From assembly GCA_021805825.1 (NCBI GenBank), contig JAJZEC010000025.1:1-48670 (forward strand): 48,670 bases of DNA. Direction: 5' to 3'. A program made the position numbers and the translations under genes. Source of the stretch: Pseudomonadota bacterium (GTDB lineage Bacteria > Pseudomonadota > Gammaproteobacteria > Burkholderiales > Burkholderiaceae_C). The notes under the pieces were generated by a model that saw only the letters and a list, made by a program, of their open reading frames with translations, searched no databases and was not told the DNA's origin. Shown piece after piece: positions 2,778 through 17,291 of the stretch (position 1 is its first letter; the number at the start of each line of letters is the position of its first letter).

Positions 2778-2968
2778 CGCGCATCCTGCGGAGCCTGCGG
2801 CTCGCAGCGCTCGCCGCTGCAGCTGCCGCGATGCTCAGCGCATGCTATGTCGTCCCGGCGCGCCCGGTGGCCGCGGTCGTGGTTCGTCCGGCCCGGGCCG
2901 CATGCTGGCACCGCGGCTGGTGGGGGCCGTGGGGATGGCACCCCGGGCATTGGGGAGTCTGCCGATGA
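2774..2968 (+). CDS. Small lipoprotein, Trp/His-rich tail
   Basis: A 64-residue predicted lipoprotein. The GTG start at 2774 overlaps the previous stop and is preceded by GGAGGA. The lipobox LSAC is near residue 24. The short mature part is hydrophobic Ala/Val/Pro, then rich in Trp, Gly and His (GWWGPWGWHPGHWG), which suggests surface or metal contact. It overlaps the next gene by ATGA. Function is unknown; small Trp/His-rich lipoproteins of this sort are common in proteobacteria and poorly studied. Confidence 0.65.
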   Translation: MTRILRSLRLAALAAAAAAMLSACYVVPARPVAAVVVRPARAACWHRGWWGPWGWHPGHWGVCR

Positions 2969-4602
2969 GCGCCTTGCGCCGCTTCGCGTTGCCAGCCTGG
3001 GCCTGCGCGCTGACGCTGCTGGCGGCCTGCTCCGCGCAAGGCGCGGTGCCCAGGGCCGCCTCCACAGCGCTTGCACCTGACCCCAGCCTCGATGCCGCGG
3101 CGCGCGCCCATCCGGTGGCCTTTCTCGACCGCCTGGGCTGGGGCGCCGATGCCCGGGAGTTGCGCCAGCTGCGGCGGGAGGGCGCGACGCGCTTCCTGGA
3201 TGCGCAATTGCGGCCGGGGGCGGGGACGGCGCTGCCGGCGGCGTTGGCCAGCCTTCCTGCGCCCGCGCCGCTGCAGGATTGGCTGCCCTCGATGGTGGCG
3301 CGCTTGCGGCGCGATCGCATGCACGTGCGCGCTGCGGCGGATCCGTCCTCCTCCATGCGCGGATCTGCGGTCGCGCAGGATCCGCAGGCTCGGCTGAAAG
3401 CCTTGCAGCAGCGCAGGAACGCGCGCACACGCCAGGCCATGGCACGGCAGCTGCTGCTGGACGTGTACGCCCGCAACCAGTTGCAGCAGCGGCTGACCTG
3501 GTTCTGGATGAATCACTTCAACGTGTTCCGCGGCGGCCTCGTCGGGCCCATGATGGCCGATTACGAGCAGCGGGTGATCGCTCCGCACGCGCTGGGGCAT
3601 TTCCGTGACCTGCTGCAGGCGACGATGTTCTCGCCGCAGATGCTGCTCTATCTGAACAACGCGCAGAACGCGCGCGGCCACATCAACGAGAACTACGCCC
3701 GCGAGCTCATGGAGCTGCACACCCTGGGCGTGGGAGCCGGCTACACGCAGGCGGACGTCACCAACCTGGCCCATGTGCTGACCGGGCTGGGCGTCGATCT
3801 GTTGAACCGGCCGCTTCGCGTGCGGCCTGCCTGGCGCGATCTGGTGTGGCGCAAAGGCCTGGTGGTGTTCAACCCGGCGCGCCACGACCCCCAGCCCGAG
3901 GTGGTGCTGGGCCATACCCTGCAGGGCCGGGGTGTGGGCGAGATCGAGCAGGTGGTGACCCTGCTGGCCGCCGATCCGGCGACGGCCCGGCACCTGAGCT
4001 TCGAACTGGCGCAGTATTTCGTCGCCGACCACCCCGACCCGGCGATGGTCGCGGCGATGGTGCGCACCTGGCGACGCAGCGACGGAGACATCGCCGCCGT
4101 GCTGCGCACCATGTTCCGCAGTCCGCAGTTCATCGCCAGCCTGGGGCAGCCGCAATTCAAGGATCCGATGCGTTACGTGCTGTCGGCGGTGCGCGCCAGC
4201 GTGGGCGACCGCATCATCCGCAACCCGCAGCCGCTGCTGGGCATGCTGGTACGCCTGGGAGAGCCGCTGTACGGACGCAGCACCCCCGATGGCTACCCCA
4301 TCGACGGCGGCGCCTGGGACAGCCCCGGGCAACTGACCACGCGCTTCCAGATCGCTCGCCAGTTCGGCGCGGGGGCGCCGGGGCTTTTCAGCTGCGCGCC
4401 CGCGGATCGGGCCGCGCCGGGCGCGGCCGACACGCCTTGCCGGCGCCGCCGCGTTCGCGCTCCCGAGCTTGCGCACAGCGCGGTGTTCCTGGCTGCCCGG
4501 CCCGTGCTCAGGCCGGCAACCCTGCAGGCACTCGCCCAGGTGCACCAACGATTCCGCTGGAACGCACTGTGGCTGGCATCGCCTGAATTCATGAACGACT
4601 GA
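2965..4602 (+). CDS. DUF1800 family lipoprotein
   Basis: A 545-residue protein with a lipoprotein-type signal (LTLLAAC at the cleavage site). It shows the typical DUF1800 order: a short N-terminal HPVAFLDRLGWGA segment, LTWFWMNHFNVF (about residues 178-189), then NENYARELMELHTLGVG and the following YTQADVTNLAHVLTG. These proteins are exported or surface-attached, of unknown biochemical role, and are almost always paired with a DUF1501 protein, as here. The start is set by the ATGA overlap with the upstream lipoprotein. Part of the C-terminal Pro/Arg-rich section (about residues 470-505) looks loosely structured. Confidence 0.85.
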   Translation: MSALRRFALPAWACALTLLAACSAQGAVPRAASTALAPDPSLDAAARAHPVAFLDRLGWGADARELRQLRREGATRFLDAQLRPGAGTALPAALASLPAPAPLQDWLPSMVARLRRDRMHVRAAADPSSSMRGSAVAQDPQARLKALQQRRNARTRQAMARQLLLDVYARNQLQQRLTWFWMNHFNVFRGGLVGPMMADYEQRVIAPHALGHFRDLLQATMFSPQMLLYLNNAQNARGHINENYARELMELHTLGVGAGYTQADVTNLAHVLTGLGVDLLNRPLRVRPAWRDLVWRKGLVVFNPARHDPQPEVVLGHTLQGRGVGEIEQVVTLLAADPATARHLSFELAQYFVADHPDPAMVAAMVRTWRRSDGDIAAVLRTMFRSPQFIASLGQPQFKDPMRYVLSAVRASVGDRIIRNPQPLLGMLVRLGEPLYGRSTPDGYPIDGGAWDSPGQLTTRFQIARQFGAGAPGLFSCAPADRAAPGAADTPCRRRRVRAPELAHSAVFLAARPVLRPATLQALAQVHQRFRWNALWLASPEFMND

Positions 4603-4631
4603 GTCCGGAACCATCCGGAGGGAGGGTGATC

Positions 4632-5840
4632 ATGCAACGTCGAGCCTTCGTTCGCGCCGCCGCGGCCTCGCTGGCTCTGCCGATGGCCAGGCTGTGGGCA
4701 GCCCCCGTGCCGGGAAGTCCGAAATTCATCCTGGTGTTCCTGCGCGGTGCCTATGACGCGGCCAACGTGCTGATCCCCTACGCCAGCGACTTCTACTACG
4801 AGGCGCGGCCGCACATCGCGGTGCCCCGGCCCGGGAGCGGGGACGACGCGGCCGTCGCGCTCGACGCCGACTGGGCGCTGCACCCGGCGCTGCGTGGCAG
4901 CCTGCTGCCGCTGTGGCAGGCGGGCCAGCTGGCCTTCGTGCCTTTCGCGGGCACCCGCGACCTCAGCCGCAGCCACTTCGAGACGCAGGATCACATCGAG
5001 CTCGGCCAGGGATCGACCGCGCGCGACTACAACGACGGCTTCCTCAATCGCCTGCTGCTGCAACTGCATGGCGATGTCCGTCCGATGGCCTTCAGCGCGC
5101 AGCTTCCCTTGTCCTTGCGTGGCCCGCGGCGTGTGCCCAACATGGCCGTCGCGCAGGCTGGTCGCGGCGCCGTCGGGCCCCGTCAGCAGGCCCTGCTCGA
5201 GACGATGTGGAGCGACACGGCGCAGGAAGGCTCGGTGCGCGAGGGCTTCGCCGTGCAGGCCACGGTGCGCCGCGACATGCACGCTTCTGCGTGGAGCCAG
5301 GAGATGCGCGCGGCAAGCCGCGGCGCCGTGGCTCCGGAGGGATTCGTCGGCGAGGCGGCGCGCATCGGCACGCTGATGCGCGACAGTTTCGACATCGGCT
5401 TCGTCGACGTCGGCGGATGGGATACGCATGTCTTCGAAGCGGGCGCCAACGGCTCCCAGGGTCAGCTGGCCACCAAGCTGCGTTCGCTGGGGGATGGCCT
5501 GGCCACGCTGCGCCAAGCGCTGGGGCCAGCCTGGCGAGACACCACGGTGGTGGTGCTCAGCGAGTTCGGCCGCACCTTCCGCGAGAACGGCAACCGAGGC
5601 ACCGACCACGGCCACGGCAGCGTCTACTGGGTGCTGGGCGGGGGAGTGCGCGGGGGGCGCATCGTCGGCGAGCAGGTCGCGTTGTCGCCAGCCACGTTGA
5701 ACCAGAATCGCGACTACCCGGTGCTGAGCAACGATCGCGATCTGCTGGGGGCCTTGTTCGGCCGCCTCTGGGGCTTGCGCGCGCAGCAGCTGCAGTCCGT
5801 GTTCCCCGACAGTCGGCCGCTCGACCTGCGCCTGCTGTGA
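4632..5840 (+). CDS. DUF1501 family exported protein
   Basis: A 402-residue partner of the DUF1800 protein. It begins MQRRAFVRAAAASLALPMARLW, a signal with an RR pair that could be Tat or Sec. The family belongs to the alkaline-phosphatase/sulfatase-like superfamily. Visible signatures are FLRGAYDAANVLIPY, SRSHFETQDHIELGQG, DVGGWDTH and the C-terminal SEFGRTFRENGNRGTDHGHG. The ATG at 4632 has GGAGGG 5 nt upstream; a GTG at 4626 in the same frame is less well placed. The gene lies 29 nt after the DUF1800 gene. Substrate unknown. Confidence 0.85.
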   Translation: MQRRAFVRAAAASLALPMARLWAAPVPGSPKFILVFLRGAYDAANVLIPYASDFYYEARPHIAVPRPGSGDDAAVALDADWALHPALRGSLLPLWQAGQLAFVPFAGTRDLSRSHFETQDHIELGQGSTARDYNDGFLNRLLLQLHGDVRPMAFSAQLPLSLRGPRRVPNMAVAQAGRGAVGPRQQALLETMWSDTAQEGSVREGFAVQATVRRDMHASAWSQEMRAASRGAVAPEGFVGEAARIGTLMRDSFDIGFVDVGGWDTHVFEAGANGSQGQLATKLRSLGDGLATLRQALGPAWRDTTVVVLSEFGRTFRENGNRGTDHGHGSVYWVLGGGVRGGRIVGEQVALSPATLNQNRDYPVLSNDRDLLGALFGRLWGLRAQQLQSVFPDSRPLDLRLL

Positions 5841-6125: not shown

Positions 6126-7769
6126 ATGCACGTATCGAGACGACTGCCCATGCCCGCCCTGGACTTCGGGTTCGGCGAAGGCCGAAGACCTTGGCTGGCC
6201 CCTGCGGTGCTGGCCTGTCTTGCCTGGTCTTGCCTGAGTACGGCCGCGGCGGCATCGCCGGCCCAGGCCTATGTGTACCGCGTCGACGGCAATACGCTGC
6301 TCCGTGACGCGCAGATCGCGCAGGCCCTCAAGGGGGTGCCGGTAGGCGCCGGCTTGCAGGCCATTCGGCAGGCCGCGCAGCGCCTGCAGCTGGCGTACCG
6401 CGAGGCCGGCTATGGCACCGTGGTCGTGCAGGTTCCCCCGCAGACCATATTGCATCACGAGATTCACCTGCGGGTGATCGAGGGTAGGCTGAGCCAGGTC
6501 GATGTCGCGGGGCTGCGAGCATTCAGCCGTGCGAACGTACTGCGCGGCCTGCCGGCGTTGCGGTTGGGACGGGTGCCGAACCTGGCCGCGCTGGACAGCG
6601 AGTTGCTGATGGACAACGAAAACCCGGCGAAGTCGGTGCGCGTGGTGTTCCAGCCCGGGCAGCGGCTCGGTCAGGTCGATTCCCTGGTCGTCGTGCGCGA
6701 GCGCCCGATCCGGCAGTGGGCCCTGGGCTTCGACAACACCGGTAATTCGGCCACCGGAACCACGCGCGCGACCCTGGCCTACAGGGACGCCAATGTGCTC
6801 GACAGCGACAGCGTGCTGCGCCTGCGGCTGCAGGCATCGACGGATCGGCCCGCCGACGCGGCCAGCCTCAGCACGACCTTGCGCCAGCCCTTGTACGACC
6901 GGCACACCTTCCTGGAATGGTCGGCGCTGCTCTCCAACACCGCCGACCAGCCGATTTCCACGCCTGCCGGCGAGCTGCGCTTCACCGGCAAGGGCTACTC
7001 GGCCGGCGTGCGCGCGCTGTGGCTGCAACCTCTGCTCGGGCGCTACCGGCAGGAATTCTTCGTCGGGGTCGACGCCAGGCGCTACCGCAACAACTGCTCG
7101 CTGGGAAGCTTCGGCGCCGCCGGCTGCGGCGCGGCCGGCGTCTCGCTCGACGTGCTGCCGCTTTCGCTGGGCTACCAGCTGCAGCGCATCGGCGGCCCGA
7201 TGGCGCAGGTGCGTCTGGTGCAGAACCTCCCGGTGGGCAGCGCTGGTGACCAGGCCGCCTTCGACGCAGCGCGTCCAGGCTCCAGCAGCCGCTACCGCCT
7301 GTTGCGACTGGACGCGGGCGGGCGTCACGGCCTGGCGGCGCAGCGCCGCATCGATTGGCGCGTGGATGCGCAGTACAGCGCGCAGCCGCTGGTCTTCGCG
7401 GAACAGTTCGGCGTCGGCGGCGCGCGCAGCGTGCGCGGCTATCCGCAGACCGCGCTGGTCGGCGATTCCGGCGCGTCGGGCAGCCTGCAATTCAGCTTGC
7501 CGCTGGCGCAGCCCGACCGCGGGCGCCAGGGCGTGGCGGAGGCCTTGCGTGCGGTCACCTTCGTCGACGCCGGCACGGTGTCGGATCGCGAGGGCGTCGA
7601 GTGCCAGGCGGGCCGAACCCGCTGCAGCATCTGGGGAGCAGGGTTCGGGCTGCGCATGCGCATTCAGGCAGCGACGCTACGCATGGATCTGGCGCGCGCC
7701 GGCGCGACCGTGGCCGGCACGCAGCGCGGCGACTGGCGGGTGCATGTGGCGATCCGCTTCGCGCTCTGA
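6126..7769 (+). CDS. Two-partner secretion outer-membrane transporter (ShlB/FhaC/HecB family)
   Basis: A 547-residue TpsB-type Omp85 protein that should thread the downstream exoprotein through the outer membrane. After a signal peptide (about residues 9-41, ending near AAAASPAQA) come a POTRA-type domain (about 42-120, with AYREAGYGTVVVQVPPQ) and HLRVIEGRLSQVDV, then a barrel. The VRGY motif of the lid-lock loop is near residue 436. It ends in a typical aromatic or hydrophobic outer-membrane C-terminus (VAIRFAL). The ATG at 6126 has no good ribosome site; 6150 is an alternative. It is 15 nt from the exoprotein gene, so the two form one transcript. Confidence 0.9.
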   Translation: MHVSRRLPMPALDFGFGEGRRPWLAPAVLACLAWSCLSTAAAASPAQAYVYRVDGNTLLRDAQIAQALKGVPVGAGLQAIRQAAQRLQLAYREAGYGTVVVQVPPQTILHHEIHLRVIEGRLSQVDVAGLRAFSRANVLRGLPALRLGRVPNLAALDSELLMDNENPAKSVRVVFQPGQRLGQVDSLVVVRERPIRQWALGFDNTGNSATGTTRATLAYRDANVLDSDSVLRLRLQASTDRPADAASLSTTLRQPLYDRHTFLEWSALLSNTADQPISTPAGELRFTGKGYSAGVRALWLQPLLGRYRQEFFVGVDARRYRNNCSLGSFGAAGCGAAGVSLDVLPLSLGYQLQRIGGPMAQVRLVQNLPVGSAGDQAAFDAARPGSSSRYRLLRLDAGGRHGLAAQRRIDWRVDAQYSAQPLVFAEQFGVGGARSVRGYPQTALVGDSGASGSLQFSLPLAQPDRGRQGVAEALRAVTFVDAGTVSDREGVECQAGRTRCSIWGAGFGLRMRIQAATLRMDLARAGATVAGTQRGDWRVHVAIRFAL

Positions 7770-7784
7770 TCGAGGAGGAACGGT

Positions 7785-10700
7785 ATGCCATCGAGACCCC
7801 ACGCCCTCCGCGGCAGAGAAGGCCGCGGCCGCCGGATTCTGCACCCCCTGGCGCTGAGCGTGGCCGCAGCCCTGGCGTTGATGGCGCGAGGTGGTGCCGA
7901 CGCGGCCGATCTGCCCACCGGCATGCAGGTCGTCGCCGGGCAGGCTCAGTTGTGGCGCCGTGGCGCAGTGATGGATATCCGCACCGGCCAGCGCACGATC
8001 CTGGATTGGAGGAGTTTTTCCATCGGCGCGGGCAAGCAGGTCGTGTTCCAGCAGCCCAGCCCAAGCAGCGCGGTGCTCAACCGCGTACTCGGACAGGATC
8101 CGTCGAACATCCTGGGGGGGTTGCGCAGCAACGGACAGGTCTGGTTGATCAATCCCAACGGCGTGCTGTTCGGCGCTGGCGCGCGCGTCGATGTCGCAGG
8201 TCTGGTGGCCTCGACGCTGGACATCGGCAACCAGGCCTTCGTGTCGGGTGGGGGCCTGCTGTCCGCGCCCGCCGGCGCTTCGGCCGCGGTGCGCAACGAG
8301 GGAAGCATCCGCACGCCCTATGGTGGGCAGGTGCTGCTGGTCGGCTCCAGCGTCGACAACACCGGCAGGATCGATGTGCCCGGCGGGCGCGCGTCGCTGC
8401 TGGCCGCCAGGCAGGTGCAACTGGCCGACAGCAACACGCCGTTCATGAGCTTCCAGGTGGCGTCGCTGTCCGGCTTGGCCAGCCAGGAGGGCTCGGTGGC
8501 CGGTGGCGACGTGGACATCTACGGCACGGTGGTCAACCAGCAGGGCAGCGTGGTCGCGAGGGGCATCGGACGTGACGCCGCTGGGCACGTCGTGCTGCGC
8601 GCGGCAAGTTCCGCCACGCTGGCGGCGGGCAGCCTCACCCAGGCTCAGGGCGGCTCGATCGACGTGGGCAGCCAGGGCGCTGTGAGCGTCGACGGCCGCG
8701 TCGATGCGGGCGCGGTGGCGATGGGCAACGGCGGTGACATCTTCGTCCGCGGGGCATCGATCGTCGTCGGCCGGGACGCGAGCCTGCGGGCTGATGCGGC
8801 CGGTGTCGGAGACGGCGGGCATGTTGCGCTGCGCGCGAGCCACTCGAACACGGTACTCGGCGCATTGAGCGCGCGCGGTGGAGCCACCTCGGGGAATGGA
8901 GGGCTGATCGAGACCTCGGCCGGCAGCAGTCTGGATCTGCAAACGGTGCCCGATGCCTCGGCCGCGAACGGCAGCTCAGGTGAGTGGCTGATCGATCCCT
9001 ACGACGTCACCATCGTCGCCGGCGCCGGCGCCAGCGGAATCAGCTCCAGCAATCCCTTCCAGGCGACTGCGAACAGTGCGCAACTCGGCGCCGGCCTGAT
9101 CGACAACGCGCTGGCGGCGGGAACCAGTGTCACCATTTCCACAGGCGTCGGCGGCGTGACCCAGGCCGGGAACATCACGCTGGCCAGCCCGATCGCAGCG
9201 ACCCTGCCGGCCGGTGGCGCGAGCCTGACGCTGAATGCCTGGAACAACATTCAGGTCGACAGTGGAATTTCGGCCAACGCCGGCGGTGGGCCGTTGGCCT
9301 TGACCCTCAATCCTGATCAGGGCGGGGGAGTCGGGCAGGTGACGTTGCCGGCCGGAGGCAGCATCAGCCTGAACCAGGGCACGTTGACACTTCCGCAAGG
9401 GGCGATGCTGACCGGGGGCGCGCTGCAGAACCTGCAGAGCAGTGGCGGGCCGATCGAGGCCAGGACGGGCACCAGCACCCTGGACAACGTCACCCTGGGC
9501 ACGACCTTGCAGATCGACCCCGGAGCGGTGGTGACGGCGCTCAACACCCTGACCATCCTCGGTGGCCAATCGGTGAATCTGGCCAATCCGTCGCCGTCTG
9601 TCCCCGGACCTGTGCTGAGTCTGCAGGGAGCGGCGCCGCTGATCACGGGTAGCGGCACGGTGAACCTTTTTGACAATTCCACCCTTGCGCTTGGGCCGAA
9701 TGCCACCATCGACAGCGGAATCACGGTGGCCGCAGCGATGACTGGCGGGGGATCGGCCAATGCCGCGATCCTTTCGGTGGCGAACGGGTTTGTGAACCGG
9801 GGCTTCATCAGTTCGCAGTCGGCCTGTCCATCGGGCGTCGGAACCTGCCAGGTCGAGGAGCTTCAGATCGCCGCCAACGGAGTCAGCTGGGACAACGTCG
9901 GCACGATCCAGGCGATGGGAGGCATCGTCGACCTTCAGGGCAACTGGAGCAATGCCGGCGGCACGCTGGATAACGAGGCTGGGCTGATCCTGCTCGACGG
10001 CCATTTTTCCACCGCCGGTCTGGGGTCGGTGCTGAGCAATGGCGGGGCCTATGCGCTGGCCAGCCAGGCCGTGTGGAACAACCAGGGCCAGAACTACAGC
10101 CTCGACGCCATGGGCGGGCTGTTGCTGGCCGGTGGCACGCTGCAGGGAGGCACCTTGAGCAGCCGCCTGGGCAGTGTCATCGAGGCCGCGCCCAACGACC
10201 TGACCCAACTGCCGAGCTTCGGCATGCTGCCGTTGATGACCACCACAGCCTGGGCCTCGACCAGCACCCTGGATGGGGTCACGCTGGCCGCCTCCACCAC
10301 CATCGATCCTGGTGCCACCATCCAGGTTCCGGGTGCGCTGACCCTGAGCGGCCAGGTCGACGTGGCGATGGGCGGATCCGGTGGTGCGTACTACGCCTAT
10401 CCCGGCCCCGAGAACAATCCGGCGCTGCTGGACTTCGGCGGCAGCGGCACCAGCCCCCAACTGCTGGGTAGTGGCACGGTGGATCTGTACGGCAAGGCCG
10501 TCGTGCAGTCCAGCGTGGCAGGCTCGACCTTGCGCATTGGCCCGGGGATCACCGTACGCGGCGACACCCCCGTCGCCAGCATTGTCGGGGGCGCCAGCGC
10601 GAACCTGCTCAACCAGGGCACGTTGCTGGCGCCGGCGGGCGGAGGCTTGCGGCTGGCCGGAGCCACATTGCAAAACCAGGGACTGGTCGAAGCCGGTTCT

Positions 10701-12617
10701 GGCGCCACGCTTTCCACCGGGGGCGTCGACCTGAGCAATGCCGCGGGCGGGAGCGTGCGCGGCGACGGCACCATCGACCTGCGAGCGGCAGCGCCCGGAG
10801 CCGCGGCGGGTACTCTGCGGAACGCCGGAACCATCGATCCCGGCATGGCCGCTGGAACGACCGGTACCCTGACCCTGGTCGGCAACCTGTCGCAGTCTCC
10901 CGGCGGCACCTTGCACCTGGACATCGGCGGCCCGACCGCGGGCAGCGGCTACGACGTGCTCGACGTCACCGGTCTGGCAGCGCTCGGGGGCACGTTGGAC
11001 GTCAGCGGTGTCGGTGCCTACACCCCTGGTGCGACGGACAGCTTCGCCTACCTGCCCTTCGGTACCAGCAGCGGGACATTCTCCAGCGTGCTGTTCCACA
11101 TGCCCGCTGCACAATGGGGGCTGAGCAACGTGCTTCAGGCCTCGGCCTGGGTCTTGCAGCAGCAGTCCTCCGCGGGCGCCTCTTCGGGAAGCGCCGGCGG
11201 CACAGGCAGCGGCATCGCAGGCGGCTCGGGCGGGGCAGGCAGCAGCGGGGCGGGCGTCGCTACCGGCAGCGGCGGATCCGCGGGCGCCACCGGCAGTACC
11301 GGCGGGTCGCAGCTTTCGGCGGGGCCTGCGGCGGCCTCCGGTGTCCTGCGGTCGGTGCTCGGCTTTGCCGAGGTGAGCCCGTCGAATGCGCGGCCAGGCT
11401 CTTCCAGCGCAGCAGCCGGACTTGCGCCTGGGGCGACATCGGGAGCTGCGTCTACGTCGCCATCCCTGTCGACGTCTGGCGCCTCCGGGGCCGGCCTGTC
11501 CGGCGCCTCGGCGTCGATCGTGAACTTCGTTCCGCAGGAGACGCCAGGCGCGCCAGTGGCCGCGGGCCCGGCACCGTCGATGCGGACCCCCGCGAAAGAC
11601 GCCATGACTGCGTCCACCCCGGTGCCGCAGTACCTGTACCTGGACTCCGACCTGTCGAACCTGTACTTCCGCGTGCTGCCCCTGGCGACGATGGGCCGCG
11701 GCCGGATCGGCGACGTACTGGAAGCCCGCAACGCGTACATGCGCCAGCTGTTCGCGCGCGCCAACCACGATCTGGCGGCCCAGCCCGGCTTGGCCGATGT
11801 GCCGGATTGCAGGCCTGGGCAGGATCCGGCCAGTGGGGCCTGCCTGTACGTGCCACCGCGGCATCCGCCGCAGGACAATCGTCCACGGGTGGCGCGCGCC
11901 CTGGTGGTCGGGCTCGACGACTACAGCGACCCGCGCATCCCGCGCCTCATCGGCACCGTGCCCGACGCCACGTCGATCGGCCGGCTGTTGCATGGCGACA
12001 TGGGCTACCGCGTGCAGCTGCTGCGCAATCCAGGCAAGCGCCAGCTGATCGGCGCGCTCAATACCCTGATCGCCCATGCCGGGCCCAACGACAGCATTCT
12101 GGTCTATTACGCCGGCCACGGGGACACGGTCGACAGCACGGGACGGGGGTACTGGATTCCCAGCGATGCCGATCCGGACGATCCGCGGGGCTGGGTGTCC
12201 AACGTGGACATCGATCGCCTGTTGCAGCGCGCACGCAGCCGCCAGATCGCGGTGATCTCGGACAGTTGCTACTCGGGCCAGTTCGTGCAGAACCGCAAGA
12301 TCGTGGACTTGCGCAAGGTGCCGCCGATCGCCGCCCTGCTGCGGCGTCGCGCGGTGACGGTGATGTCCTCGGGCGGCGACGAGCCGGTGGCCGACACCGG
12401 CGATGGTGGTCATTCGGTCTTCGCGGCCGACCTGATGCGCAGTCTGCGCGCCATTTCAGGCTGGCGCAACGGCGACGCCGTGTTTCGCCAGGTTCGCGTC
12501 GGCGTGGAGAGCGTGCTGCCGCAGTCGCCGCGCTACGGCGCGGTGCTCAGCGCGGGGCATCAGCCCGGCGCCGACTATGTGTTCGAGCGCAGCAGCGTGC
12601 CTGGGGTGGCGCGGTGA
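7785..12617 (+). CDS. Two-partner secretion exoprotein with C-terminal caspase-like (C14) protease
   Basis: A 1610-residue protein. It has an extended signal peptide (about 1-41), then a haemagglutinin-type TPS domain (about 42-280) with the secretion motif NPNGVLF at 123-129. A long Gly/Ser/Asn-rich beta-helix-like region follows (about 280-1120), then a Gly/Ser/Ala low-complexity linker (about 1125-1175). After a spacer comes a caspase-like domain (about 1366-1600) with VVGLDDYSDPRIP, the histidine motif YYAGHG (His1445) and the cysteine motif DSCYSG (Cys1495), so the catalytic dyad is present. The ribosome site GAGGAACGGT precedes the ATG. The TpsB gene is 15 nt upstream; the CHASE2 gene overlaps by 4 nt. 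A secreted or surface-displayed protease is inferred. Confidence 0.9.
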   Translation: MPSRPHALRGREGRGRRILHPLALSVAAALALMARGGADAADLPTGMQVVAGQAQLWRRGAVMDIRTGQRTILDWRSFSIGAGKQVVFQQPSPSSAVLNRVLGQDPSNILGGLRSNGQVWLINPNGVLFGAGARVDVAGLVASTLDIGNQAFVSGGGLLSAPAGASAAVRNEGSIRTPYGGQVLLVGSSVDNTGRIDVPGGRASLLAARQVQLADSNTPFMSFQVASLSGLASQEGSVAGGDVDIYGTVVNQQGSVVARGIGRDAAGHVVLRAASSATLAAGSLTQAQGGSIDVGSQGAVSVDGRVDAGAVAMGNGGDIFVRGASIVVGRDASLRADAAGVGDGGHVALRASHSNTVLGALSARGGATSGNGGLIETSAGSSLDLQTVPDASAANGSSGEWLIDPYDVTIVAGAGASGISSSNPFQATANSAQLGAGLIDNALAAGTSVTISTGVGGVTQAGNITLASPIAATLPAGGASLTLNAWNNIQVDSGISANAGGGPLALTLNPDQGGGVGQVTLPAGGSISLNQGTLTLPQGAMLTGGALQNLQSSGGPIEARTGTSTLDNVTLGTTLQIDPGAVVTALNTLTILGGQSVNLANPSPSVPGPVLSLQGAAPLITGSGTVNLFDNSTLALGPNATIDSGITVAAAMTGGGSANAAILSVANGFVNRGFISSQSACPSGVGTCQVEELQIAANGVSWDNVGTIQAMGGIVDLQGNWSNAGGTLDNEAGLILLDGHFSTAGLGSVLSNGGAYALASQAVWNNQGQNYSLDAMGGLLLAGGTLQGGTLSSRLGSVIEAAPNDLTQLPSFGMLPLMTTTAWASTSTLDGVTLAASTTIDPGATIQVPGALTLSGQVDVAMGGSGGAYYAYPGPENNPALLDFGGSGTSPQLLGSGTVDLYGKAVVQSSVAGSTLRIGPGITVRGDTPVASIVGGASANLLNQGTLLAPAGGGLRLAGATLQNQGLVEAGSGATLSTGGVDLSNAAGGSVRGDGTIDLRAAAPGAAAGTLRNAGTIDPGMAAGTTGTLTLVGNLSQSPGGTLHLDIGGPTAGSGYDVLDVTGLAALGGTLDVSGVGAYTPGATDSFAYLPFGTSSGTFSSVLFHMPAAQWGLSNVLQASAWVLQQQSSAGASSGSAGGTGSGIAGGSGGAGSSGAGVATGSGGSAGATGSTGGSQLSAGPAAASGVLRSVLGFAEVSPSNARPGSSSAAAGLAPGATSGAASTSPSLSTSGASGAGLSGASASIVNFVPQETPGAPVAAGPAPSMRTPAKDAMTASTPVPQYLYLDSDLSNLYFRVLPLATMGRGRIGDVLEARNAYMRQLFARANHDLAAQPGLADVPDCRPGQDPASGACLYVPPRHPPQDNRPRVARALVVGLDDYSDPRIPRLIGTVPDATSIGRLLHGDMGYRVQLLRNPGKRQLIGALNTLIAHAGPNDSILVYYAGHGDTVDSTGRGYWIPSDADPDDPRGWVSNVDIDRLLQRARSRQIAVISDSCYSGQFVQNRKIVDLRKVPPIAALLRRRAVTVMSSGGDEPVADTGDGGHSVFAADLMRSLRAISGWRNGDAVFRQVRVGVESVLPQSPRYGAVLSAGHQPGADYVFERSSVPGVAR

Positions 12618-14062
12618 GCCGTGCCAGCCGCCTCGTCGCCCTGCTGCACAACCTCGGTGGACAGTTCCTCTACGAGGCCTTGATCCGCACCCTGCGCGGC
12701 TCGCTGTTCATCGGTGGTGCGGCGGTGGTGCTGTCGTCCACCGGTGCGTGGAAGTACCTGCTCAGCACCTTCTCGGCGCACGATTTCGTGCAGGCCAGTC
12801 GCTTGAGCCAGGTGGTGGGCACGGTTCCCTCGGTGGCCACGGTGCTGATCGACGACGCCGGCTACCGCGACTATTTCGGTGAACGCTCTCCGCTGGATCG
12901 GCAACGCCTGCTGCGACTGATGCGCACCATCGATGCAGCCGCGCCGCAGGCGCGCGCGATCGTCGTCGATTTGGATCTGGCTCCGTTGCCCGGGCACGCG
13001 CAGCGTGCGCTGCTGGATTTCCTGATCGCGCATCGCGCGCGTTGGGTGGTCGCCGCGACGACGCTTGCCGCGCAGCCCTCCACGCCCGGGCGGGCGCGCT
13101 GGCGCCGTGCGCTGTGCCAGGGCGGCGTGCGCATGGGCTGGCCTTACATACCTTATGACTTTGGCTACGCGTCGACGGTGTTCCAGTTTGCAGGCTCGCT
13201 GAGCCAGGCCGCGATCCACCCGCGGCTGAACTGCGACAACCTGGCCAGCACCCTGGTAGCCGGCCGCACGGGCCTTGCAGCGCTGCGCCGCGTCAGCGCC
13301 CCGATGGCGCCGGGCTATCTGCGCAACGGATTCGTGCTGCCCTTCGACGGTGATCTGGGGCAGCTGCGCGCCTTGTTGCAGGCGAGCGCGCCCCAGTGGA
13401 TCGTGCTCGGCGGCAGCTGGGGCAAGAGCGACCTGCAGTCCACCCCGCTGGGACGTCGCTACGGCGCGCAACTGCATGCGGCGGCGATCGCCGGCCATGT
13501 GCGCGGTGAGCACATGGCACCGCTGGGGCTGCAGATCCTGGTCACCTGGCTGTTCCTGGCCTGTGTCGACGTGGTGATCGGTCTGCTCTACCTCGGTGTC
13601 GAGCGTCACATCATGTCGTGGAGCCTGCTGTACGCGGGGCATCGCTTCCTCGTGCAGCGCGTCTGGCCTCTCGCGCTGGTGGGCGTCGTGGTCGTCTCGG
13701 TGCTGCTGGCCTCCGATGCCAGCGCCGAGCTGCGCGTGCACACCGGGTACTGGATTCCCTCGGCGGTGTTGGCGGGCGGGGCGCTGGTTCACCTCGTGTT
13801 CATCTGGAACTGGGGGTGGAACAAGATGGTGCGCTACGACAGCGTGCGCGCGGCGTGGCGCCAGGTGCTCGTCGCACCCATTCGGGACGACTGGCAAGCT
13901 GCGCGGCATGCGCTGCACGTGTTGCGCTGCGGCATCGGTGGGGCTGCGGCAGAGGCGGATCTGAGTGCGCCACGCGCGGCGCTGGAACTGGTGGCGGTGG
14001 CTTCCAGCCTCCTGATCCAGACGATGTTCCCGCTGTTGGTGTTCTGGTCGGCATTGCACTGA
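12614..14062 (+). CDS. CHASE2-domain membrane protein without an output domain
   Basis: A 482-residue protein. The GTG start overlaps the exoprotein stop (GTGA), so translation is coupled. One membrane helix (about 32-52) leads to a large extracytoplasmic CHASE2-type domain (VPSVATVLIDDAGYRDYFGE, then LDRQRLLRLMRTIDAAAPQA and IVVDLDLAPLPG). About three helices follow (near 305-327, 350-370 and 378-400), the arrangement usual after CHASE2. Instead of a kinase, cyclase or EAL/GGDEF domain the rest is a short cytoplasmic stretch and a last hydrophobic segment (about 465-482). CHASE2 is a sensory domain of unknown ligand. Coupling to a caspase exoprotein suggests it anchors, senses or regulates that protein. 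Confidence 0.8.
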   Translation: MSRASRLVALLHNLGGQFLYEALIRTLRGSLFIGGAAVVLSSTGAWKYLLSTFSAHDFVQASRLSQVVGTVPSVATVLIDDAGYRDYFGERSPLDRQRLLRLMRTIDAAAPQARAIVVDLDLAPLPGHAQRALLDFLIAHRARWVVAATTLAAQPSTPGRARWRRALCQGGVRMGWPYIPYDFGYASTVFQFAGSLSQAAIHPRLNCDNLASTLVAGRTGLAALRRVSAPMAPGYLRNGFVLPFDGDLGQLRALLQASAPQWIVLGGSWGKSDLQSTPLGRRYGAQLHAAAIAGHVRGEHMAPLGLQILVTWLFLACVDVVIGLLYLGVERHIMSWSLLYAGHRFLVQRVWPLALVGVVVVSVLLASDASAELRVHTGYWIPSAVLAGGALVHLVFIWNWGWNKMVRYDSVRAAWRQVLVAPIRDDWQAARHALHVLRCGIGGAAAEADLSAPRAALELVAVASSLLIQTMFPLLVFWSALH

Positions 14063-14143
14063 AGATTCCATGGAGCTGCCTGGTGTCCTGTCCCGCTCAT
14101 CACTGTCATTTCGTTCGTGTGCCTGCGGGAGCGATCGGCGGTT

Positions 14144-14186
14144 GCCCGCACAGGGTCAAGACTGGGCGTCTTGACCCTGTGCGGGC
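14144..14186. terminator. Perfect 19-bp stem hairpin
   Basis: GCCCGCACAGGGTCAAGAC at 14144-14162 pairs perfectly with 14168-14186 around the loop TGGGC. There is no T-tract on either side, so it is not a standard rho-independent terminator, but so stable a stem 80 nt after the CHASE2 stop could end or attenuate transcription or protect the 3' end. Confidence 0.5.
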
Positions 14187-14216
14187 GGGCGGCGAGTGCC
14201 CAGTGAAGTGACAGTT

Positions 14217-14242
14217 ATGAACGGGAAAGATGAACGGGAAAG
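14217..14242 (+). repeat. 13-bp perfect tandem repeat
   Basis: ATGAACGGGAAAG occurs twice without a gap (14217-14229 and 14230-14242) just upstream of the next gene. It lies in the right arm of the MITE-like element and duplicates part of that terminal repeat. Confidence 0.8.
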
Positions 14243-14251
14243 GACACTAGC

Positions 14252-15046
14252 ATGACCCTCTCATGTACTCGCCTGCGCGGCGCCCTGTCGGGCCTCGCGA
14301 TCTGCCTGCTGGCGCTTGCCGTGCCGGCGCGCGCCGCAACCCCCTGCATCGTGCTCGGCAAGGCCTCGGCCAGGGTTTCCTCGGTCGAAGGCGTGCGCGC
14401 ACCGGTGTTCGAGACCGCAGACTGCCGGAAACTGCGCCTGGTCTCCGGGCACGCGCTGGCCAGCTGGGTCGATGCGGATGGCAAGCCGCAACTGGTGCCG
14501 ATCACCACCTCCGGCGTGGCCAGCTCGCCCCGGCCGGGAAGCGAAGAGCGTTCGGTTCGCGTGGCGTGGTCGGAGTTGACTTCGACGCGGGCGGATCAGA
14601 AGCCGGCCTACATGCGCGGCATGGGACTGCCGCACCCGGTGGCCGTGTACGTGCCTCGCGGTGGGCTCGACGTGGCCGGCACCGGAGGCAAGGCTGTGCG
14701 GGTGCGCATCGAGCCGCTCGGCGCGGGCGCCGCCGGGCAGCGCGTGCTGGTGGCGGCCTCGGGCCGCGCGGTGCGCCTCGGCCGCAAGTTGTTGCATGCG
14801 GGCAGCGTGTACCAGGTCGAGATCGAAACCGGGGGCAGGAAGACGCAAGGGCAATGGCGCATCGTGTCCGCCCGCGAGCAGGCGGAGATCGATTCCCGCT
14901 TGCAAGGGCTTTCCCGCCAGATCCGGGATCCGATGCAGCGTGCCATCGTGACCGCAATGCTGTACGACCAGCTCAAGTTGGAGACCAACCTGTCGCTGCT
15001 CGCGCCGAAATTGCGCGCGATGCGCGTCGGCAGCAATCCGGGTTGA
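14252..15046 (+). CDS. Secreted protein of unknown function
   Basis: A 264-residue protein with a Sec signal peptide (about residues 1-28, ending VPARAA). No family was recognised. The mature part has two cysteines near the N-terminus (PCIVLG and ADCRKLRL) that may pair, a middle portion of probable beta structure (KLLHAGSVYQVEIETGGRKTQ) and a helical C-terminus. The AAAGGA ribosome site is well placed but belongs to the MITE-like element. It follows the CHASE2 gene in the same direction. Cyanobacterial CHASE2 and secretion loci often carry a secreted DUF928 protein, and this could be a functional counterpart, but no homology is claimed. Confidence 0.75.
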   Translation: MTLSCTRLRGALSGLAICLLALAVPARAATPCIVLGKASARVSSVEGVRAPVFETADCRKLRLVSGHALASWVDADGKPQLVPITTSGVASSPRPGSEERSVRVAWSELTSTRADQKPAYMRGMGLPHPVAVYVPRGGLDVAGTGGKAVRVRIEPLGAGAAGQRVLVAASGRAVRLGRKLLHAGSVYQVEIETGGRKTQGQWRIVSAREQAEIDSRLQGLSRQIRDPMQRAIVTAMLYDQLKLETNLSLLAPKLRAMRVGSNPG

Positions 15047-15128: not shown

Positions 15129-15539
15129 TCAGACGATGCCGTGGCTGTTGAGGTGGGCGGCGTATTTCCTGTCGGCGCCCTGGATGTGGTGGATCAGCCA
15201 GTTCTTCAGGAAATACATGACCTCGAGGGAAAGGGTTGCGCTCGCGCCCTCGCGGAACTTCTGCTGCACGTCGAGCACCTGCTGGCATAGCGCCTGATGC
15301 ATCGCCTTGTGGGCCGCGCCTTCCGGGTAGCCCGTCTGCGCGAGGAGATCCTCCTCGCGCTGGAGATGCTCGACCGTGTACTGGACGAGCCCGTCGAGGA
15401 TGCGGCCCACGGTCTCCTTGCCCTGTTCCGCCTGGATTCCGTCGAACAGGGTGTTGACCATGCCGACGAGCCTCTTGTGGTCTTCGTCCAGGATCCGGAT
15501 GCCCACGCTCATCCGGTCATTCCACGTCATCAGGGGCAT
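15129..15539 (-). CDS. Bacteriohemerythrin
   Basis: A 136-residue single-domain hemerythrin. The full set of di-iron ligands is visible: His21 (EDHKRL), His58 and Glu62 (EHLQREE), His77 and His81 (HKAMH), and His118 with Asp123 (HIQGAD). Such proteins bind O2 reversibly and serve in oxygen delivery, storage or sensing in the cytoplasm. Length is normal. It starts with ATG at 15539 and stands alone between a convergent neighbour and the lpp-like gene. No regulatory sequence was identified. Confidence 0.9.
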   Translation of the reverse strand: MPLMTWNDRMSVGIRILDEDHKRLVGMVNTLFDGIQAEQGKETVGRILDGLVQYTVEHLQREEDLLAQTGYPEGAAHKAMHQALCQQVLDVQQKFREGASATLSLEVMYFLKNWLIHHIQGADRKYAAHLNSHGIV

Positions 15540-15741
15540 GATCTCTTCCTTGTCATGCGGCGCGCTGCAACCCGGTGCCTTCGGGCCGGGCAGCCGCTCG
15601 GCACGGGCAAGGGTCGTGCTGGCTCTACGTCACGGCCATGCGTTTCTTGAGCGGCGCTCGGATGATGCCTCGTGGCGCCCGCTGGATCGGCTGCGGCGAT
15701 GCAACTTGATGTGCCGGGATCAGCAAGGGGGCTGCAAAAGG

Positions 15742-15770
15742 TTGCATTCGGCCCCAGGGCTTTCTCTAGA
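15742..15770 (+). promoter_or_regulatory. Probable sigma-70 promoter of the lpp-like gene
   Basis: TTGCAT at 15742-15747 and TCTAGA at 15765-15770 are spaced by 17 bp, placing a start about 30 nt before the coding sequence. The match to consensus is fair; it is the only such pair in this gap. Confidence 0.45.
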
Positions 15771-15806
15771 CTGGACAATCCTGTCGACACACTCTGGAGA
15801 TACGTC

Positions 15807-16121
15807 ATGCGCAAGACCATGTTCAAGACCCCAGCCTTGCTGCTGGGAGCGGCGCTGGCAGCGGCCCTGCTCGGGGGTTGCGCTTCCACCGGCGACCTGG
15901 CCAAGATCAGCGCCACCGCCGATTCGGCGCAGCAGGCCGCGGCTTCCGCGCAGTCCGAGGCGGCGCAGGCCGGCAAGTCGGCGGATCAGGCCAACCAGAC
16001 GGCCAACGCGGCCATGCAGAAGGCCGATCAGGCCTCGTCGACGGCCGATCAGGCCATGAGCGAGGTGCAGCGCTTGAAGGTGGAAGTCGATCGCATGTTC
16101 AAGAAGACCATGCAGAAGTAA
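15807..16121 (+). CDS. Lpp-like alanine-zipper outer-membrane lipoprotein
   Basis: A 104-residue lipoprotein. The signal ends LLGGC (lipobox), giving a short mature protein whose heptad-like Ala/Ser/Gln pattern (SADQANQTANAAMQKADQA) predicts a trimeric alanine-zipper coiled coil as in Lpp and OprI. It ends in lysine (KKTMQK), the residue by which Braun's lipoprotein is joined to peptidoglycan. The ribosome site CTGGAG lies before the ATG. An L,D-transpeptidase gene of the family that makes this bond starts 10 nt downstream. Covalent attachment to the wall is therefore likely, but inferred. Confidence 0.85.
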   Translation: MRKTMFKTPALLLGAALAAALLGGCASTGDLAKISATADSAQQAAASAQSEAAQAGKSADQANQTANAAMQKADQASSTADQAMSEVQRLKVEVDRMFKKTMQK

Positions 16122-16130
16122 GGCGATCCG

Positions 16131-17291
16131 GTGCAGCACAGCGGGCCGCCGGGGAGGGGTTGCGGCGGGACGCGGGCACGGAGCTCCGCGTGCGCGGCAT
16201 TCGGTGCGTGGGAGCGGTGCGTACGCCACGCAGCCGGCGCTCTGGCGCTGCTGGCTGCGCTCGGCGCACCGGGAGCGGCCCCGGTCGCGGCGGCAGCCAC
16301 CTTCGACCTTCCTGCCGACGGATCGAACATCGTCGGCAGGGTTCAGCTGATCAGGCTGGACAACCCGGCCAACACCTTGCTGGACATCGCCAGGCACTAC
16401 GACCTGGGCTATGAGGAGATCGTGCGTGCCAACCCTGCCGTGTCGGTATGGGTTCCGGGGGCCGGGACGCGGATCGTGGTGCCCACCGAGTTCATCCTGC
16501 CGCCCAGGCCGTGGCGGGGCCTTGTCGTCGATATTCCGCGGCGCAGGCTGTACTACTTCCCGGCGCCGCGTCGCGGGCAACCGGCGCAGGTGATCACCTT
16601 CCCGATCGGCATTGCGCGTCCGGGCTGGCCGACTCCGCTGGGAAGCACCCGCATCGTCGCCAAGTTCCGCAATCCGTCGTGGATCGTCCCCAAGGACATC
16701 CTCGAAGAGCATCGGCGCGAGGGCCAGGCCGATTTCCCCCGGTACTTCCCGCCGGGGCCGGGCAATCCCATGGGGATGCTGGCCATGCAGACAGGCTTTC
16801 CGGGGATTTTCATCCACGGAACCGACAGACCATGGGGCGTGGGCAGGCGGGTCAGCCATGGCTGCATGCACCTGTACCCGGAGGATGCGGCGTTCCTGTT
16901 TCCCCGCCTTCCGGTAGGCACCGTAGTGCGCGTGGTCGACCTGCCGGTGCTGGTCGGAAGCCGTGGCCGGCAGTTGTACGTGAGCGCCTCCATGCCGGTG
17001 GCGGACTACGCCTCGGCGCAAAGCCTTCCCACGCGGGCGGTCGCGGCGCTGGCGCATTGGCGCGCCCGGCACCCCGGCTTGCAGAGGCAGCCGATGCCCT
17101 GGCAGCAATTGCTGGCTGCCGCTTCCGCGCAGCGCATGATGCCGGTGCCGATCGGCGCGCACAGCGGGCAGCGCGACGGGCGCGCGGCTGCGCAAGCGCC
17201 GCTTTCCTATGCGTTCCCGCCCTATGGGGTGGCTGCGAACAACGCGCAGGTTCCGGTTGCGCCAGCATCTGGCGCGGCCAGGGGGCCGTGA
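16131..17291 (+). CDS. L,D-transpeptidase (YkuD/ErfK-YbiS type) with LysM-like domain
   Basis: A 386-residue periplasmic enzyme. After a long N-terminal region and signal helix (about 32-56), a LysM-like segment (about 67-125, with NTLLDIARHYDLGYEEIVRA) precedes the YkuD domain (about 130-270). Its active-site motif is SHGCMHLYP, with His243 and Cys245. Family members form 3-3 crosslinks or attach Lpp to meso-diaminopimelate; an immediate Lpp-like neighbour favours the latter. The start is GTG at 16131, preceded by AAGG. The tail after residue 290 is long, basic and probably disordered. Cotranscribed with the lipoprotein gene. Confidence 0.88.
   Translation: MQHSGPPGRGCGGTRARSSACAAFGAWERCVRHAAGALALLAALGAPGAAPVAAAATFDLPADGSNIVGRVQLIRLDNPANTLLDIARHYDLGYEEIVRANPAVSVWVPGAGTRIVVPTEFILPPRPWRGLVVDIPRRRLYYFPAPRRGQPAQVITFPIGIARPGWPTPLGSTRIVAKFRNPSWIVPKDILEEHRREGQADFPRYFPPGPGNPMGMLAMQTGFPGIFIHGTDRPWGVGRRVSHGCMHLYPEDAAFLFPRLPVGTVVRVVDLPVLVGSRGRQLYVSASMPVADYASAQSLPTRAVAALAHWRARHPGLQRQPMPWQQLLAAASAQRMMPVPIGAHSGQRDGRAAAQAPLSYAFPPYGVAANNAQVPVAPASGAARGP

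Follow-up and report, generated by a model that had tools for sequence, protein, structure and literature searches.

The window analysed here, a 48,670-nucleotide (nt) stretch of contig JAJZEC010000025.1 from a Pseudomonadota bacterium (Burkholderiaceae_C), contains a four-gene unit in which a caspase-like protease forms the tail of an exported protein. A transporter (TpsB) and an exoprotein (TpsA) of the two-partner secretion (TPS) type, the latter ending in a Peptidase_C14 domain, are followed by a CHASE2 membrane protein without an output domain and by a small secreted protein, P0004. All four genes are present in the same direction where the first-pass annotation had placed them (Pfam, NCBIfam), and the 15-nt gap that it gave between tpsB and tpsA and the 4-nt overlap (GTGA) between tpsA and the CHASE2 gene are both found. 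The unit is real, and its linkage is well supported. The reading that we prefer, at a probability of about 0.42, is that the exoprotein is tethered, that its caspase tail lies in the periplasm and is controlled by CHASE2 and P0004, and that this tail perhaps releases the exoprotein.

The first two proteins have the expected domains of two-partner secretion. TpsB combines a POTRA_2 domain with a ShlB barrel, and TpsA has a TPS domain (PF05860, 5.5e-27, residues 67-271; TIGR01901, 7.8e-23) with an NPNG motif that conforms to the NPxG sequence of this secretion type. The best match of TpsA in the PDB is EtpA, which aligns over residues 42-393 and resembles the TPS part and the shaft. The C-terminal domain matches Peptidase_C14 with 62.2 bits against a curated cut-off of 21.4, and a profile of the caspase tail matches the solved structure of Metacaspase-1 (4f6o, 1.1e-5), which we take to be the yeast protein. 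Both matches bear out the relationship to C14 that had been proposed for this tail. The catalytic dyad is intact, with His1445 in YYAGHG and Cys1495 in SDSCYSG, and the GHG and DSCYSG motifs are kept in all six other TPS-C14 proteins. An aspartate lies two residues before the cysteine, a position at which metacaspases carry an Asp that favours cleavage after Arg or Lys. PADLOC gives a single match, TpsA, to a model named caspase; the score of TpsA against the EACC1-associated caspase family (NF047832) is 69.4 bits, under the curated cut-off of 140.

Exactly three cysteines are invariant in the four TpsA proteins of the genus, those of the window and three relatives: the catalytic residue and a pair, C1342/C1353, that is spaced 11 residues apart shortly ahead of C14. 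The TPS exoprotein of a more distant genome, G039, has a pair with the same 11-residue spacing (C1850/C1861). This arrangement resembles the disulfide lock of HMW1 and HxuA, in which a disulfide loop fixes the C-terminus within the TpsB pore and leaves the tail periplasmic (as described in part of PMC5422565); the FhaB prodomain is likewise kept in the periplasm according to a passage of PMC8263021. About 260 residues, including C14, come after the candidate disulfide of the window TpsA. By analogy, the caspase would sit in the periplasm if such a loop preceded it, beside the CHASE2 domain and P0004. The first-pass annotation had put the protease outside the inner membrane next to a putative envelope sensor, and this remains the natural reading because both TpsA and P0004 have signal-like starts. 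A location outside the cell is not required, however, and the Cys pair argues for the periplasm.

The protein encoded by the overlapping gene matches CHASE2 (PF05226) with 30.0 bits against a cut-off of 26.3. Its hydropathy profile has hydrophobic segments at residues 22-40, 308-326, 353-371, 380-398 and 459-477, and the chain ends five residues after the last of these. No output domain (kinase, cyclase or GGDEF) is found in it by Pfam or NCBIfam, and a profile search of the PDB gives no match. Seven aligned CHASE2 proteins, including this one, have the pattern YxxYF...SPLxR in common. P0004 belongs to no family in Pfam or NCBIfam; a weak model predicts strands and then two C-terminal helices. 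The P0004 gene is kept beside CHASE2 in four relatives, one of them a remnant.

The gap of about 190 nt that had been noted before P0004 has this size (189 nt), but it is not a native intergenic region. In three relatives, the intervening sequence is 22 nt long. The additional DNA of the window forms a foldback (-106 kcal/mol, z -7.95). Another 15 partial matches to it are scattered in the genome; they include its own reverse arm and, apart from that, seven with E < 1e-6. We read it as an inserted repeat, and it looks like a small mobile palindromic element. As a repeat insert, the gap should not be taken as a separate promoter, and we reject it as a second promoter region. A promoter and terminator scan gave no signal clearly above shuffled controls.

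Conserved linkage in related genomes was a test that the first-pass annotation had set for its proposal, and both order and overlap are indeed kept. The order tpsB, tpsA-C14, CHASE2, P0004 is the same in the window and in three relatives (G005, G010 and G015, with the tpsB of G015 cut by a contig end), and the TpsB proteins of these relatives, including the cut one, are 76-80% identical to that of the window. In all four loci, the tpsA stop overlaps the CHASE2 start by 4 nt (GTGA in three, TTGA in one). Reading frames in the first 26 kb of the window were compared with those in 16-20 kb around the locus of each relative, with thresholds of E 1e-20, 35% identity and half length. Beyond these four genes, the window, G005/G015 and G010 contexts have no matching frames, so the content of the unit is kept in three contexts. 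The flanks of G005 and G015 are alike between themselves, and DUF1501, the upstream neighbour in the window, is on other contigs in the three relatives, which are draft genomes. Between the window and these relatives, the ratio of nonsynonymous to synonymous substitution rates (dN/dS) lies at 0.14-0.17 in the C14 tail, at 0.17-0.31 in CHASE2 and at 0.27-0.41 in P0004. A remnant of the locus in a fourth relative, G007 (L010 10995-12819), comprises a CHASE2 gene with an internal loss in the sensor domain and a P0004 gene that lacks the N-terminal part, and no TPS or C14 match occurs in the 20 kb examined there, as if CHASE2 and P0004 do not last without TpsA. The G010 TpsA (L009 9108-14660) exceeds the window TpsA by about 230 residues because of an extra stretch in its shaft; when the alignment is inspected by eye, this stretch looks internally duplicated.

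From this arrangement we infer the following order of events. TpsB would export the N-terminal TPS domain of TpsA, together with the shaft, to the cell surface, and the C1342-C1353 disulfide loop would halt the tail, so that C14 stays on the periplasmic side. The inner-membrane CHASE2 receptor may be translated from one mRNA with TpsA, in a coupled fashion, and, together with P0004, could hold or switch the protease in the periplasm. If CHASE2 senses a ligand or the state of the envelope, then C14 would become active and probably cut after basic residues. Its substrate would be extracytoplasmic, most likely the TpsA tail itself or else another envelope protein, and cleavage of the tail would release the exoprotein. 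The nearest known logic is that of CdrA and LapG. CdrA is a TpsA protein that is cut near its end by the periplasmic protease LapG under cyclic di-GMP control (parts of PMC11898600 and PMC5422565). The protease is a separate protein in that case, whereas the window TpsA carries its own caspase domain.

The C14 domain of the window has relatives on other kinds of exoprotein. A midpoint-rooted tree of 35 C14 domains drawn from the best matches to the window tail, in which cytoplasmic caspases are thinly sampled, contains a branch (support 96/86) that sets off 27 domains: 10 of TPS types, 16 of large exoproteins and one of a short G658 protein with a signal-like start. Some branches of this tree are long, and its details are unsure. 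The 16 large non-TPS exoproteins (L093-L108) have DUF4347 in all seven cases tested by Pfam (L093, L094, L098 and L103-L106), and an outer-membrane efflux (OEP) domain is found in all five downstream neighbours tested. At one of these loci, the two further proteins tested are HlyD-like. The large C14 exoproteins are probably type I exported caspases, and a type I route would put the C-terminus out first. In one other stretch (L090 4543-7142), two adjoining proteins with signal-peptide-like starts both match C14 in Pfam.

These relatives lend weight to a different reading, in which the window caspase is surface-displayed or released and acts on matrix, neighbours or another organism while CHASE2 and P0004 assist assembly or report. 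TpsA is built for export, related C14 domains tip the DUF4347-type exoproteins next to OEP genes, and LepA is a TPS-secreted protease (a passage of PMC5422565). The invariant Cys pair ahead of C14 nevertheless fits a retained tail, and a purely external enzyme would hardly account for the conserved overlap with the gene of an inner-membrane protein. We consider an external caspase unlikely.

TPS caspases that are associated with CHASE2 also occur outside the genus. The caspase tail is matched in 27 of 398 genomes of the phylum, with the window's own counted, and stretches were taken around 20 places in 17 of these 27. Two places, in G039 and G494, hold TPS exoproteins by Pfam. In G494, the gene order is TpsB, TpsA-C14, small secreted protein, CHASE2-cyclase. 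Plasmid records, to which the searches in Azospirillum were confined, include 42 that match the C14 tail. Four of the matches are in TPS-type proteins, annotated as having a filamentous hemagglutinin N-terminal domain; all four are from Azospirillum and are 40-42% identical to the tail. In strain 4B, for example, TpsA matches the TPS domain with 1.4e-35 and C14 with 3.1e-21 (Pfam). No TpsB is listed within 10 kb on either side of these TpsA-C14 genes in the gene table, which may be incomplete. The CHASE2-cyclase of G494 matches 674 plasmid records, and only four hold at least 80% of it. They come from the same four Azospirillum strains, on a different plasmid, where in all four a small secreted protein, the CHASE2-cyclase and TpsB follow in that order, separated by 10-44 nt. 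This small protein and its G494 counterpart are homologous (36% identity, E 1e-32 in a single comparison). Because the four strains with a lone TpsA-C14 carry a TpsB in the CHASE2 plasmid operon, the missing partner of the caspase exoprotein is probably located there. TPS-C14 with CHASE2 thus recurs in three lineages, one of them in trans. In two further regions of Azospirillaceae, from A. brasilense and Niveispirillum, TPS and cyclase genes are on one plasmid; these cyclases match the CHASE2-cyclase profile C-terminally only, and no C14 tail is seen in the regions.

A cyclase is an inward output, and in Azospirillum it adjoins TpsB. The CHASE2 protein could accordingly read the status of C14 and TpsA: on engagement, the caspase would cut P0004 or the periplasmic part of CHASE2, and a CHASE2-cyclase would pass this on as a second messenger. 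The CHASE2 proteins of the window genus lack an output domain and would need a further partner for such signalling, which we regard as rather improbable here.

The distribution of conservation along TpsA bears on whether C14 is the toxic tip of a contact-dependent inhibition (CDI) system with CHASE2 or P0004 as its immunity protein. CdiB/CdiA/CdiI systems have the same TpsB-TpsA pair, a catalytic C-terminus and genes directly downstream. Across the four TpsA proteins, the share of identical columns is 67% in the TPS domain and 78% in the caspase tail (residues 1276-1602), against 31% in the shaft (residues 272-1130) and 13% in the linker (residues 1131-1275). Conservation along TpsA thus peaks in the tail, contrary to the CDI toxin pattern, and the variable shaft with a conserved end is the reverse of CdiA as it is portrayed in part of PMC5422565. 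None of the four proteins has a VENN motif, and the gene directly downstream encodes a CHASE2 protein of 482 residues in place of a small immunity-type protein. We reject a CDI or polymorphic toxin on the conserved tail and the absent VENN and would be very surprised to find one here.

The CHASE2 subfamily of the window is found with a different protease in other families. A search of 369 genomes of the class with the genus CHASE2 alignment detects three relatives outside the genus (E 1.9e-19 to 2.6e-12), and a profile enlarged with these first three finds adds a fourth (G282, G308, G197 and G050). In all four loci, an output-less CHASE2 gene is followed by a gene for a small secreted protein and then by one for an M48 metalloprotease (Pfam). 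No TPS, TpsB or C14 match is found in the 12-18 kb around each locus by our own profiles; these small hidden Markov models contain some of the proteins that they match, and the main assignments were rechecked with Pfam. Literature searches turned up no description of the CHASE2/small secreted protein/M48 trio. Taken with the window unit, the trios indicate that this rare CHASE2 subfamily accompanies an exported protease, whose family differs between loci, together with a small secreted protein. At E 1e-8 the subfamily is present in 5 of 369 class genomes, and at E 1e-12 in 1 of 359 phylum genomes, with the window's own counted in both, and a plasmid search with the window CHASE2 protein gives no match. 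A chance or loose neighbourhood with no functional link might be argued from the abundance of CHASE2 of any type (226 of 398 phylum genomes), but we give it next to no credence because the order recurs in three contexts and the 4-nt overlap in all four loci with dN/dS of 0.14-0.41 across the C14 tail, CHASE2 and P0004, because the partners co-occur in trans in Azospirillum, and because the window subfamily is so rare.

Several observations weigh against a periplasmic caspase that is controlled by CHASE2 and P0004. The structure models are poor, with a mean predicted local distance difference test score (pLDDT) of 40 for CHASE2 and 43 for P0004. The locus is accessory: of the 28 genomes of the genus, 25 were searched for the CHASE2 gene, and five of these 25 have it, one as a remnant. 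The G039 locus (L091 2127-13277) consists of TpsB, a TpsA-C14 with YDG/MBG repeats, an FHA protein (T6SS_FHA_C) and PP2C; there is no CHASE2, and this is a TPS caspase with phospho-signalling neighbours in its place. None of the 16 large exoproteins has CHASE2 directly beside it by our own profiles, which are not very sensitive; in one stretch, a CHASE2-like fragment lies about 8 kb away, at the stretch end. The TpsA proteins of G494 and Azospirillum have no Cys pair ahead of C14. The Cys anchor is therefore not general, and these exoproteins may be held by other means or not at all. Finally, hhalign gives a probability of 4.5% over 13 columns between P0004 and the Azospirillum/G494 small protein, and of 2.8% (P 0.016 over 106 colinear columns) between P0004 and the small proteins of the M48 loci. 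Homology of P0004 is unsupported in both cases, and the three kinds of small protein may share only position and export.

The closest relatives of each part of the unit are familiar. Anchored TpsA proteins such as HMW1, HxuA and CdrA have the same TpsB-TpsA pair, an NPNG TPS domain and a Cys pair near the end that could retain the tail in the periplasm (parts of PMC5422565), whereas the window TpsA has a whole caspase after the pair and shares its unit with CHASE2 and a small secreted protein. Prokaryotic C14 caspases (orthocaspases and metacaspases) have the same family, His-Cys dyad and Asp two residues before the Cys, but the window caspase is on an exported protein. CHASE2 receptors, among them the CHASE2-adenylate cyclases, share an N-terminal transmembrane segment, the CHASE2 domain and three later transmembrane segments with the window protein, which differs in its lack of an output domain, in its divergent YxxYF...SPLxR subfamily and in the further transmembrane segment at its end.

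Most discussion of bacterial caspase homologs treats them as intracellular proteases of cell death or stress. The first-pass annotation had raised cyanobacterial loci that pair CHASE2, CHAT and TPS genes as a possible counterpart; as described there, their components are of the same kinds, and CHAT and C14 are different families. Searches of the openly licensed literature for CHASE2 with CHAT and two-partner secretion, for CHASE2 with filamentous hemagglutinin and for CHASE2 with CHAT returned no text. Among the matches listed for caspase and two-partner secretion, the titles and abstract openings concern host cells or the TPS or toxin proteins of pathogens, and the word orthocaspase appears in none of the openly licensed papers among the matches listed for a broader search. 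A CHASE2-fused metacaspase of T. erythraeum is predicted to be cytoplasmic (in part of PMC3501461), and the fusion is also described in a passage of PMC2853523. The relevant passages of these two papers and of PMC8195603 present CHASE2 as fused to a cyanobacterial metacaspase or among the domains of other systems, and they mention no exported caspase.

The related units in distant genomes point to the envelope, and not the cell interior, as a site of action of some bacterial caspases. Tentatively, there could be a class of extracytoplasmic caspases on exoprotein ends with a TPS branch that is commanded by CHASE2 and a small partner, and in this class the window caspase would be parked in the periplasm by a disulfide lock and, upon a signal from the envelope, set its own exoprotein free. 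If this is true, then bacterial caspases gain a second arena, the envelope, through TpsA export and coupling to CHASE2; output-less CHASE2 proteins gain a testable job in the control of an extracytoplasmic protease; and the unit parallels adhesin release by LapG in a self-contained form. The Azospirillum strains that carry versions of it are named, cultured and associated with soil and plants, and the idea is therefore directly testable.

Table 1. Features of the four-gene unit in the window and of related loci elsewhere (aa, amino acids; positions in related loci refer to the stretch named).
Feature	Position	Strand	Description	Evidence
tpsB	6126..7769	+	TpsB outer-membrane transporter, 547 aa	Pfam POTRA_2 2.7e-10 and ShlB 6.9e-19
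tpsA	7785..12617	+	TpsA exoprotein that ends in a caspase domain, 1610 aa	Pfam
TpsA signal-region end and TPS secretion domain	7902..8597	+	aa 40-271, NPNG motif	PF05860; TIGR01901
TpsA variable shaft and low-complexity linker	8598..11609	+	aa 272-1275	four-protein alignment
TpsA Cys pair C1342/C1353	11808..11843	+	candidate disulfide anchor loop	invariant in four TpsA
TpsA Peptidase_C14 domain	11895..12509	+	aa 1371-1575	Pfam 7.7e-17
TpsA catalytic His1445 codon	12117..12119	+		invariant in 4/4 loci
TpsA catalytic Cys1495 codon	12267..12269	+		invariant in 4/4 loci
CHASE2 gene	12614..14062	+	output-less membrane protein, 482 aa, GTG start codon	Pfam
Divergent CHASE2 domain	12767..13510	+	predicted periplasmic, aa 52-299	Pfam 30.0 bits, cut-off 26.3
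Foldback repeat	14063..14251	.	insert between CHASE2 gene and P0004 gene	folding, genome self-matches, relatives
P0004 gene	14252..15046	+	small secreted partner, 264 aa, no family	hydrophobic signal-like start; no Pfam/NCBIfam match
CHASE2-cyclase, small secreted protein and TpsB	L092 4560-15521; L110 11283-15872; L111 11202-15848; L114 3178-7800; L115 3253-7869			
CHASE2, small secreted protein and M48 trios	L017 8627-11902; L018 4276-7587; L019 9621-12929; L058 7994-11697		four genomes, three families	

The neighbours of the unit in the window are ordinary. A DUF1800 and DUF1501 pair is encoded upstream (2842-5840), and genes for a hemerythrin, an alanine-zipper lipoprotein and an L,D-transpeptidase lie downstream (15129-17291).

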